Source of the DNA: Acidobacteriota bacterium
GTDB taxonomy: Bacteria > Acidobacteriota > Terriglobia > Terriglobales > Acidobacteriaceae
Direction of reading: 5' to 3'
NCBI GenBank assembly: GCA_013290025.1
Contig: JABCYV010000008.1
Coordinates: 1 to 46,022, forward strand
DNA: 46,022 nt
Position numbers and translations under genes: made by a program. Positions 14,376 to 42,713 of this stretch are shown piece by piece. Numbering within the stretch: position 1 is the first letter of the stretch; every line of letters begins with the position of its first letter. The notes beneath the pieces were generated by a model. It saw only the letters and a list, made by a program, of their open reading frames with translations. It did not search any database and was not told where the DNA came from.

Positions 14376-14425
14376 CCGACCGCCCAAGGAGCGAGCAATC
14401 CGGCGACTGTTAGAATTGTTGTGAA

Positions 14426-14653
14426 ATGGAGGCACTTGTGCATCCCACGACAGAGCAGTTTGCGAATTACCTTGAGAACTTGGCCACAGGCTTCGAGGGC
14501 GAGGGTCACTTTTATAGGGAAATGGTGATCCACAGCGACGAACAAATCGTACTGGAGAATCTCCGGTATTTGTACGCGTGTGGTCTTGAAAAGGCAAAAA
14601 GGCTGCGCGCTCAAGCACAGCAGATCAGGGACGCTGAGAATCTGACCGTCTAG
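14426..14653 (+). CDS. Hypothetical protein (75 aa)
   Basis: MEALVHPTTEQFANYLENLATGFEGEGHFYREMVIHSDEQIVLENLRYLYACGLEKAKRLRAQAQQIRDAENLTV. Confidence 0.5.
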   Translation: MEALVHPTTEQFANYLENLATGFEGEGHFYREMVIHSDEQIVLENLRYLYACGLEKAKRLRAQAQQIRDAENLTV

Positions 14654-19485: not shown

Positions 19486-20199
19486 CTAGACCGGAAGCGT
19501 CTCCGGTGCAATCTCCTCGATGCGTCCCTGTTGTAACCGGAGCACGCGGTGGCAACGGCGTGCAAACGCAAAGTTGTGTGTAGCTATGAGGGAGGTGAGC
19601 CCATAATCGCGATGCAACCGGGAGATCAATTCAAACACCGAGTCCGCAGTCCGGCCGTCGAGGTCTCCGGTTGGCTCATCCGCCAGCAAAAGCTTAGGCC
19701 GGGTGATAAGCGCACGAGCCAGCGCCACGCGCTGTTGCTCACCTCCGGAAAGCTCCCCGGAACGGTGATGCGCACGCTGCTCCAAGCCAACCTCGCGCAG
19801 CCAGCGCGAAGCTTCTACTTGCGTTGTCTGCCGGGACGCTCCCCGCAGCAGAAGAGGCATTGCCACATTCTCCAGCGCCGTAAATTCCGGCAGCAGGTAG
19901 TGGAATTGCCAGACGAAACCGAGCTGTTGATTGCGAAACTCGGCGGCGTCGTTTTCCGTAAGCGAACTTACGCGCAAGTGGGCGCAGTATACGTCACCTG
20001 CGGAAGCGCTATCAAGAGCGCCCAGGATGTGTAACAAGGTACTCTTTCCCGCGCCTGATTCGCCCACGATCGCCAGCATCTCGCCTTTGGCCACCTGGAA
20101 CGATAAATTTTCAAAGAGCACCAAATCTGACTCGCCAGATCGGAAGACCTTCTTCAGGCCCTCGATCCGCAAGATCACTTCTGAAGCGGTTAGATGCAA
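19486..20199 (-). CDS. lolD: ABC transporter ATP-binding protein, LolD/MacB type
   Basis: [51 protein letters not shown]. Confidence 0.9.
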
Positions 20200-20380: not shown

Positions 20381-21703
20381 TCATTCGTAACGCAAAGCTT
20401 CGGCAGGCAGAATACGTGCCGCCGACCACGATGGATAAACCGTCGCAATCAGGGAAATTCCAATCGCAACCAGTGCGACCAGCACTCCATCCATCACGCG
20501 GGGCGCGAAGGGCACATAGTCGATGGAATAAACTTCCGGGGCGAGCGAAAGCAAATGGTAATGTCCGCCGATCCAGGAGAGGGCATAACCGAGGACCAGC
20601 CCGATCGTCGTGCCAATCACACCGATCAGCATCCCCTGCGCGATGAACACTCGGCGCACCTGAGCTTTGCGCGTCCCCATGGACATGAGCACGGCGATAT
20701 CCCGGGTTTTTTCCATAACCATCATCGTCAGCGAGATGAGAATGTTGAGAGCGGCGACGAATACGATCAGCCCTATGGTGATGAAGGTGACCAGACGTTC
20801 CAACCGCAAAGCACGGAAGAGAGCCCGGTTCTGTTCCATCCAGTTTGTGGCCATGAAACCCTTGCCGGCGGCCTGTTCCAGCTTGTGAGCGATTTCGCCG
20901 GCCTGATAGATGTCATCCACTTTGAATTCGATGACGGAAACCAGGTCGCCGAGACCAAAGAGCTGCTGCGCATCGGACAGCCGAGTGAAGGCCCAGGAGC
21001 TGTCGTAGTCGTAGAAGCCGGAGTTGAAAACCCCCGCTACACGAAAGCGGTTGTACTTGGGGACCATGCCAAAAGGAGTCAGCTCGCCTTGCGGACTGGT
21101 GACGAGCACGACCGAGCCCAGGGTAGCGCCCAGCTCGTCGGCCATGTCCTTGCCGAGAATGATGGGGGACATGGCTGCGACGCGGTCCTGGACGCCTTCG
21201 AGAGAAGTCGGCGATTTCTCGGTTGGTGTAGCGCGGGCGCCCTCGCCCGCGGAAGATGAAACTGCATCTGTCGGCCGTTCTTCCAGCGCCTCCGCCGATC
21301 CGATCGTCACCGTGTTCAGCAGGTCGCTGACTTTTCGTTCATAGGCTGGCATCAAGCCCTTGAGCACGGCCCCACGGGCCCGCGGGCCGCGCGAAATCAA
21401 CACCTGCTCATAAATAGCAGGAGCGGTAGCGACTACGTGAGGCTCTTTCGACAGCCGATCCATGAGAGGACGCCAGTCTTTGATGCCGTCACTCTCGATG
21501 CGCAGCAGATTAACGTGGGAAGTCGAGCCCAGGAGACGATCCTGTAGATCCTGGCGGAATCCGTTGTTGATCGCGAGGGCGACGATCAGCGATGCGACTC
21601 CCGCCGCAACCCCGGCGATGGAAATGCCGGTAATGACGCCGATGAAGGCCTGCCTCCTTTTCGCACGGAGATATCGGGAAGCGACAAAAAGTTCAAATCT
21701 CAT
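20381..21703 (-). CDS. lolC: Lipoprotein-releasing ABC transporter permease LolC/E family
   Basis: FELFVASRYLRAKRRQAFIGVITGISIAGVAAGVASLIVALAINNGFRQDLQDRLLGSTSHVNL; FtsX-like C-terminus. Confidence 0.9.
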   Translation of the reverse strand: MRFELFVASRYLRAKRRQAFIGVITGISIAGVAAGVASLIVALAINNGFRQDLQDRLLGSTSHVNLLRIESDGIKDWRPLMDRLSKEPHVVATAPAIYEQVLISRGPRARGAVLKGLMPAYERKVSDLLNTVTIGSAEALEERPTDAVSSSAGEGARATPTEKSPTSLEGVQDRVAAMSPIILGKDMADELGATLGSVVLVTSPQGELTPFGMVPKYNRFRVAGVFNSGFYDYDSSWAFTRLSDAQQLFGLGDLVSVIEFKVDDIYQAGEIAHKLEQAAGKGFMATNWMEQNRALFRALRLERLVTFITIGLIVFVAALNILISLTMMVMEKTRDIAVLMSMGTRKAQVRRVFIAQGMLIGVIGTTIGLVLGYALSWIGGHYHLLSLAPEVYSIDYVPFAPRVMDGVLVALVAIGISLIATVYPSWSAARILPAEALRYE

Positions 21704-21822
21704 CCGGAGGTCCCGCGCTGTGCTCGGGATTTCGGCGCGCGGCTCAAATGCCGCGCAAACGCCTCAACCTGCCGCCGCTTGGCGCGAAGATACCGGGAAG
21801 CGACAAAGAGTTCAAATCTCAT
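21700..21822 (-). CDS. 40-aa micro-ORF: duplicated LolC N-terminus, MRFELFVASRYLRAKRRQVEAFARHLSRAPKSRAQRGTSG
   Basis: TGA overlaps lolC ATG (ATGA). Second unit of the 119-bp tandem repeat. Confidence 0.5.
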   Translation of the reverse strand: MRFELFVASRYLRAKRRQVEAFARHLSRAPKSRAQRGTSG

Positions 21823-21941
21823 CCGGAGGTCCCTCGCTGTGCTCGGGATTTCGGCGCGCGGCTCCAACGCCGCGCGAACGCCTCAACCTGCCGTCTTTTC
21901 GCGCGAAGGTAGCGGGAGGCGACAAAGAGTTCAAAGCGCAT
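21819..21941 (-). CDS. 40-aa micro-ORF: duplicated LolC N-terminus, MRFELFVASRYLRAKRRQVEAFARRWSRAPKSRAQRGTSG
   Basis: TGA overlaps the next micro-ORF ATG (ATGA). First unit of the tandem repeat. Confidence 0.5.
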   Translation of the reverse strand: MRFELFVASRYLRAKRRQVEAFARRWSRAPKSRAQRGTSG

Positions 21942-22012
21942 GGTAGCGATTTGCCATCAGCCAAGCCCCGATTATAGCTAGAGGTGTGCGGAACGTTTTC
22001 ATGAGGTCGCAT

Positions 22013-42300: not shown

Positions 42301-42713
42301 ACAGTGCCTTCGCCTTTCTTTGCCCGGAGTTTCATCTTGGTGATCAGGCGGCAAAGATTCTGGTAGCCGGTGCGGGAAGAGACAAGGAGGGGAAGACGGA
42401 AAGAGATTTTTGAATGTTCGGATTTATGAATTGTCGAATTGAAAACATCTCGATCCTTTGACGGATTCTTCAATTCGTCAATCCGGAAATTCGTCAGTCC
42501 GAAAATTTCACACATTACTTCCGCTCCGATGTGCGCCTTGATCCCGGCCTTCTCCGCTGCCATGTGAAAACGCGGAGCGCCATACACGCCGTCCCGGTCG
42601 AGCAGGGCCATGGCCGGCATGTGCAGGTTGGCGCAGTTTGCGATCAGATCTTCAGGCAGGGAAGCGCCTTCGAGAAAACTGAAGGCAGAGCGGGAATGAA
42701 ATTCGATGTACAT
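39366..42713 (-). CDS. dnaE2: Error-prone DNA polymerase DnaE2 (ImuC)
   Basis: PHP MYIEFHSRSAFSFLEGASLPEDLI; DIDLDLPSGDQRERVIQYLYKRYG; HLGQHSGGMVICQGQLDSVVPLEPA; FPESHAASFALLAYASAYLKCHY. Confidence 0.95.
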   Translation of the reverse strand: MYIEFHSRSAFSFLEGASLPEDLIANCANLHMPAMALLDRDGVYGAPRFHMAAEKAGIKAHIGAEVMCEIFGLTNFRIDELKNPSKDRDVFNSTIHKSEHSKISFRLPLLVSSRTGYQNLCRLITKMKLRAKKGEGTVHEKELQEHSVGLICLTGGDDGPLATALAQGGKEEAQRSIEHLTEIFGRDNVYVELQRHFHREQEARNRAAIEIARSLRLPLLATNGVCYATAHERELCDVFTAIRNHRTLATAGRLLARNSERHLKSRQKMQQLFADLPETIANTVELSSRFEFTLSDLGYEFPKYPVPEGETMMSFLRERSWEGFLQHYGRAASELKNRARHQIERELTLIQKLNLAGYFLIVWDLVRYCCEQNILVQGRGSAANSAVCYSLGITAVDPVGMELLFERFLSEERGEWPDIDLDLPSGDQRERVIQYLYKRYGEGGAAMTANVITYRSRMASREIGKALGFDPETLDKVSAAVSTWEYKDANDTLDHRFRDAGLDLNHPRLRKYFELCEAVQDLPRHLGQHSGGMVICQGQLDSVVPLEPASMPGRVVVQWDKEDCNDLGIIKVDLLGLGMMAVLEDSLELIRNHYGEEVDLAHLPPDDPTVYSTLQKADTIGMFQIESRAQMSCLPRLRPQRFYDIVVQVAIIRPGPIVGQMVNPYLQRRMGRESVNYLHPSLEPVLTRTLGVPLFQEQLLRMAMIAAGFSGGEAEELRRAMGFKRSQARMKEIEARLRSGMERNGISREAQEKIILSITSFALYGFPESHAASFALLAYASAYLKCHYLAAFTAALLNNQPMGFYRPATIVKDAQRHGLKVLSIDVMKSEWNCTVVETAGETPALRLGLRYARGLREEAGQALVRQRSLAPFVSIHDLVHRVPELRKDDLNTLAEIGALNSIGNSPPSRKNRKEFQNEDFRLQVATDDANQSEICNQKSDIAFHRRDALWQVERAVRHSGPLVDELPEPDSKSPLRPMNAEERLVGDFRGTGLTVGPHPMAYHRPRMLAMGIRKAIELSHIPNGKSVRVGGCVIARQRPGTAKGFVFLSLEDETGVANAIITPDLFQKNRMLVSSEQFLMVEGILQNQDNVISVKAQRVLPLSITRAETTSHDFY

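Follow-up and report, generated by a model that had tools for sequence, protein, structure and literature searches.

A dispersed two-hairpin element probably entered lolC and regenerated its start in an acidobacterial genome

Mycobacterial interspersed repetitive units (MIRUs) stand in tandem at gene starts, where their stop and start codons overlap, and Rickettsia palindromic elements are palindromic repeats that are read in frame inside genes. In this study we describe an arrangement with both traits at the start of lolC, a lipoprotein-release permease gene, in a 46,022-nt stretch of DNA from a bacterium of the Terriglobales (Acidobacteriota; contig JABCYV010000008.1; hereafter the window), where copies of the gene start alternate with a short element that we call E. 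MIRUs differ from E in sequence and phylum and are not known to copy the gene's own start. Rickettsia palindromic elements (mentioned in PMC3733652) remain inside the protein, whereas with E the gene is regenerated downstream. Repetitive extragenic palindromic (REP) sequences, REPINs and the class 3 TnpA_Y1 hairpins, which flank class 3 Y1 genes of Acidobacteria in high copy number (about 600 copies in Solibacter) and have a CnGA foot (PMC6006769), are like E short, dispersed, folded, of high copy number and non-coding; the class 3 hairpins also share with it the phylum and a CnGA-like motif near the hairpin. E differs from them in that its two hairpins keep a fixed order and contain tandem G.A bubbles (the Solibacter hairpins were compared by description only) and in its exact left boundary after A-A/G-G/C, often with 17-120 bp of duplicated target. 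The miniature fragments of IS91/IS801, which arise by one-ended transposition, resemble E in mobilisation in trans and in their target tetramers, which include GAAC and CAAG; no homology was seen, and target duplication is not described for them in the passages of PMC3189936 consulted. We rate E as a variant of the REP/miniature-element kind. At lolC we consider it likely that this dispersed two-hairpin element inserted after codon 18 with a target duplication that regenerated the gene, and that duplication of the resulting unit, a coupled leader and recoding of the functional start followed.

The lolC-start ATGs of the window (minus strand) lie at 21941, 21822 and 21703. Their exact 119-nt spacing, reported in a preliminary description of this DNA, is matched by Tandem Repeats Finder (TRF), which gives a period of 119 over 21649-21935 (2.4 copies, 88% matches, score 448). 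The array has the layout C1-E1-C2-E2-C3 (Table 1), in which two copies of the ~60-nt element E, placed after codon 18, alternate with three copies of the gene start. Each 119-nt unit is thus a composite of about 51-55 nt of lolC start (C) and 57-68 nt of E. The first two ATGs each open a frame of 40 aa, MRFELFVASRYLRAKRRQVEAFAR..SRAPKSRAQRGTSG, whose TGA overlaps the following ATG as ATGA, and only the third reads into a 440-aa LolC/E-type permease, with lolD next; all this agrees with what had been described. The best NCBIfam models are TIGR02212 (lolCE; E-value 4e-103) for the permease and LolD (E-value 1e-82) for the ATPase downstream, both slightly under the curated cut-off. Across the 18 codons shared by C1, C2 and C3 every difference is synonymous (7 codons for C1/C2, 8 for C2/C3 and 9 for C1/C3), and nonsynonymous differences between units are confined to the inserted part. 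The units are diverged, as had been stated, but the nonsynonymous differences noted at the time belong to E alone. The start copies differ by 8-10 nt per 54, and independent assemblies, some of them made up of 20-30 contigs (G026, G185, G028), show this anatomy too, so that assembly stutter is an unlikely origin of the array, as had already been argued. E1 and E2 have rare bases (GAGCACAGCG) and the tail CCTCCGG in common. Since variant and tail are the same, the second unit appears most likely to stem from one later duplication of C plus E rather than from a second independent insertion. C2 and C3 share AGA, GCT and TAT and differ there from C1; hence the unit duplication would postdate the onset of change in the functional copy.

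E is found well beyond lolC. It matches nine further places in the window's own incomplete genome (18 with a consensus query) and was detected in at least 99 of 201 genomes of the family, a lower bound given that few candidates were scored per genome. When 85,488 genomes were scanned with a strict pattern, 42 records matched, all Acidobacteriota and nearly all Terriglobales/Acidobacteriaceae/Ca. Sulfotelmatobacter. Two hairpins with tandem G.A mismatches are common to 36 non-redundant copies (alignment A1), always in the same order: TT-GA-GGC...GCC-GA-AA, with a variable inner stem, and TCCY-GA-GC...GC-GA-RGGA. In this alignment 99.4% of cells are paired, two-sided changes number 77 against 20.7 in shuffles, covariation is seen at 10 of 18 pairs, and slid controls drop to 27-53%. 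The structure was derived from the same sequences that were used to test it, a circularity that does not account for the two-sided changes. The folded form may be RNA or single-stranded DNA. E is non-coding and open in one frame only (V-E-A-F-A..). A covariance-model search of six E loci against Rfam gave 0 matches at E<=1, and the literature on Acidobacteria repeats of this type, with most subscription journals outside the search, described nothing beyond the class 3 hairpins. E thus appears to be a dispersed DNA element of Acidobacteriota, short and folded, that has not been described before. At one locus (L036) hairpin B is present on its own as a separate repeat (GTCATCCCGAGCGAAGCGAGGGATCT).

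The array had been interpreted as a 119-bp tandem duplication of the lolC start whose copy number could tune expression. It is indeed a TRF array, and its second unit probably arose by local unit duplication; however, 57-68 nt of each unit are a dispersed structured element that shows the same geometry at many other loci, and the copying of starts is a feature of E throughout the family. We regard plain duplication without a mobile element, taken as the whole explanation, as very improbable. Unit expansion itself is seen elsewhere, in E arrays of 2-4 units at infA, tRNA-Ser and tRNA-SeC, and to this extent the idea of changing copy number is borne out.

The geometry of insertion was studied in 155 distinct copies of E. 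The left end is exact and adjoins a target of the form A-A/G-G/C: position -3 is A in 146 copies, and the tetramer directly to the left is GAAC in 35, GAAG in 23 and CAAG in 20 (together 78). A repeat of the left-flanking sequence, 17-120 bp long, stands to the right of E in 55 copies, compared with 1 of 228 control positions shifted by 420 nt. The left duplicate ends exactly at the first base of E, with zero gap, in 47 copies; the right junction is imprecise, and the second target copy mostly begins 0-60 nt after E, with 0-55 nt of filler in the majority of cases. The order in all these target cases is truncated target, E, intact target, with the intact gene on the 3' side of E. Sense targets are the starts of lolC, infA (in two genomes, at different codons), tuf (in two genomes), mnmG and a 3-hydroxyacyl-CoA dehydrogenase gene, and antisense targets are the 3' ends of fusA and a thiolase gene. 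One of the tuf (EF-Tu) insertions lies in the window's own genome (L004, contig C116 near 14418-14481), where a start copy with MAK is followed by E and an intact tuf. The left flank resembles the complement of a tRNA T-loop in 39 copies, and for most of the tRNA loci tested ARAGORN finds an intact tRNA adjoining E; the examples include Arg, Leu, Val, Ser, SeC and Cys. An empty site is available as well: G116, of the same genus as G026, has a lolC without E whose start differs from C1 of G026 by 2 of 54 nt and whose upstream region is similar.

Some further loci were noted. E lies in tRNA-SeC genes of three other genomes (L084, L198, L204), in arrays in two of them; the insertion point is either the T-loop or a place close to an internal GGTTTTGAAG. 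A tRNA 3'-part stands left of the E copy that directly precedes lolC in G074 (L114/L119), which suggests recombination between E copies of different loci. In lolC of G001, from the same genus, GGGCACTGACCTCTTC precedes ATGAGA (L094) and may be what remains of an E tail that decayed once C1 and E had been lost.

At lolC the copy upstream of E has a native look, and the functional one is strongly recoded, nearly always synonymously. Summed over eight coding pairs (C1-C3 omitted), the changed codons comprise 65 synonymous and 9 nonsynonymous ones, whereas the expected synonymous share of single-base changes in these pairs is only 17-27%. When compared with 42 native lolC starts from the family, upstream copies have a normal mean distance of 9.9-13.7 nt (median of the natives 12.7), and functional copies stand out as extreme with 15.7-17.9 nt (maximum of the natives 16.6); this holds in all four genomes with C1. 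The functional copies contain 4, 4, 2 and 4 rare codons, compared with mostly 0-1. When G026 is compared with G116, 7 of 18 codons are changed in the functional copy and 3 in the 18 codons that follow it. Such a native-like upstream copy beside an alien functional one might also be expected if the locus were the scar of a site-specific integration, in which a tyrosine recombinase or integron-type integrase inserted a circular cassette of E plus a start segment and a foreign, synonymous start restored the gene. The restoration of the gene on one side, the folded site with its variable stem and the tRNA targets would fit as well, tRNA T-loops being classic attachment sites. On the other hand, the functional copy of G026 retains Ile3, which among the lolC starts read occurs only in its genus, functional copies behind E are at least 9-13 nt away from any sampled native start, and the targets have little in common beyond A-A/G-G/C. 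We consider such a scar improbable, and Ile3 in G026 and the lack of a close native match likewise disfavour horizontal import of the functional start in general. As candidate causes of the recoding, stop-codon creation, initiation context and other selection remain.

The short frames upstream of lolC had been proposed to be translationally coupled to the gene. Coupled genes of prokaryotes are most often arranged with an NTGA overlap, and the RNA-unfolding model of coupling builds on a hairpin that covers the ribosome site downstream (PMC12548453). The window resembles this arrangement in its -4 nt stop/start overlap, present in both units, and in a hairpin over the downstream Shine-Dalgarno (SD) sequence, an SD-like GAGGGA before C2 that sits within a hairpin arm of E; it differs in that the upstream frame is a truncated self-copy of the gene plus a dispersed element. 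Among eleven coding insertions (about six distinct sites, since lolC and tuf recur), E lies in its open frame relative to the gene start in ten, the exception being L194. The ATGA overlap occurs at five of the eleven junctions, namely at lolC of G000 (both units), G026 and G185 and at infA of G028, and the stop falls 8 nt inside the gene in G125 and in the dehydrogenase. Codon 2 starts with A in 7 of 7 E-preceded lolC genes and in 10 of 43 others (Fisher p=2e-4, an optimistic value because the genomes are related; counts were made by hand). Because of insertion phase, ATGA overlap and codon-2 bias, coupling to lolC gains support as a prediction. Transcription from upstream of C1 is plausible because of the TATAAT found there, and similar hexamers precede lolC in many, not all, relatives. 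If instead lolC initiated independently at C3, the micro-ORFs would be untranslated by-products of the insertion. Their stops well before the gene at several loci would agree with this, while the three features just named and the position of the SD-like GAGGGA inside a hairpin arm speak for translation; we find this alternative less likely than coupling at lolC.

As to the enzyme, E departs from the REP, IS200/IS605 and MITE patterns. Its consensus (36 copies) lacks the canonical GTAG/GTGG hairpin foot of REPs; IS200/IS605 elements make no larger target duplications (PMC2817692), in contrast to the 17-120 bp found at E; and E differs from classical miniature inverted-repeat transposable elements (MITEs) in that its ends are not inverted repeats and its duplications vary in length. 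It might nevertheless be moved at GAAC/CAAG-like targets by an HUH single-strand transposase, either a Y1 enzyme like those of REPs and REP-associated tyrosine transposases (RAYTs), perhaps of class 3, or an IS91-like Y2 enzyme, a proposal that concerns only the enzyme and is compatible with the insertion and target duplication favoured here. Exact GAAC or CAAG, as among IS801 targets, stands left of E in 55 of the 155 copies, and most others are one base off; hairpin B contains CCGA/CTGA, reminiscent of the class 3 foot; and genomes with detected E have more Y1 genes (p=1e-4). This association may mirror a general load of mobile DNA, presence of Y2 is not associated with E (p=0.77), and the missing GTAG foot, the target duplications and the lack of any E-flanked class 3 gene in the Y1 loci read all speak against an HUH enzyme. 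Such an enzyme is thus conceivable without being our expectation, and class 3 Y1 genes of Acidobacteria would be the best lead for the mobiliser.

In the sequence of events that we favour, E would be a ~60-nt, non-coding and probably non-autonomous mobile element of Terriglobales. Judging from the anatomy of its junctions and from the one empty site in a sister species, insertion and target duplication would be a single event, in which the second target copy would regenerate the gene on the 3' side of E; inside genes and tRNAs only such regenerating insertions would survive. At lolC the unit of C plus E would then have duplicated once. Messages probably start upstream of C1, and ribosomes would read from C1 into E, in the only frame that is open there, and terminate at the ATGA on the lolC start, unfolding the hairpin that holds GAGGGA, and would then reinitiate or load on lolC. 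Afterwards the functional copy changed fast at synonymous sites and the upstream copy stayed native-like, as seen for lolC in four genomes. In its general form the idea is of a new kind of minimal mobile element whose insertion is exact at one end and of a repair type at the other, where 20-100 bp of target are copied again. Such an element would enter essential genes and tRNAs harmlessly, turn the old start into a coupled leader and leave the regenerated start to rapid recoding by selection. We advance this general form only tentatively.

Several observations weigh against the favoured sequence of events. No boundary duplication was detectable within the searched span in 100 of the 155 copies, so that duplication is either not obligatory or decays, and its length varies, unlike a classical target-site duplication. 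Among 20 Y1 transposase loci fetched, E was adjacent at one only (L270, where it appears inserted inside an element bounded by terminal inverted repeats), and no consistent partner emerged, since E is not found at the ends of Y1 loci. For mnmG and fusA both copies are equidistant from relatives and the direction of change is not readable. Two causes of recoding were tried and given up: unfolding of the mRNA holds for G000 only and fails in G185 and G026, and a spacing of changes that breaks the direct repeat was not supported. The micro-ORF stops within E at 4 of the 11 junctions (infA of G004, tuf in two genomes, mnmG), where measured 38-45 nt before the gene, and coupling is therefore not general. 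Among the E-preceded lolC genes whose codon 2 starts with A, those of G074, G102 and G134 have no detected C1, and an A-rich second codon could be favoured for initiation alone.

Table 1. Features of the lolC region in the window
Feature	Position	Strand	Remarks
C1, upstream truncated lolC-start copy	21887..21941	-	ATG..CAG G; native-like codons
E1, element copy	21823..21886	-	core 21830-21886, tail CCTCCGG; left boundary exactly after CAGG
C2, second lolC-start copy	21768..21822	-	ATGAGA..; intermediate codons
E2, second element copy	21704..21767	-	core 21711-21767, tail CCTCCGG
C3, functional lolC start	21649..21703	-	most recoded copy
Micro-ORF 1	21819..21941	-	40 aa; TGA overlaps C2 ATG (ATGA)
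Micro-ORF 2	21700..21822	-	40 aa; TGA overlaps lolC ATG (ATGA)
lolC/E-type lipoprotein-release permease	20381..21703	-	440 aa
lolD-type ATPase	19486..20199	-	237 aa
TATAAT promoter-like hexamer	21971..21976	-	35 nt upstream of C1; consensus match only

On the plus strand of the window, opposite the array, an open frame of 171 aa (21462-21977) is likely spurious, and a second, minor tandem repeat lies at 42472-42507 (16-bp unit, 2.2 copies).

The geometry of E would explain why cells survive a short repeat that is lodged in tRNA genes or in such essential genes as infA, tuf, fusA and lolC. This geometry lies outside the rules of IS200/IS605, REP and MITE elements and is directly testable. Insertion of E might thereby be a natural source of new leader frames, and the old start beside the new one may serve as a fossil record for measuring rapid change at the synonymous sites of a functional start.
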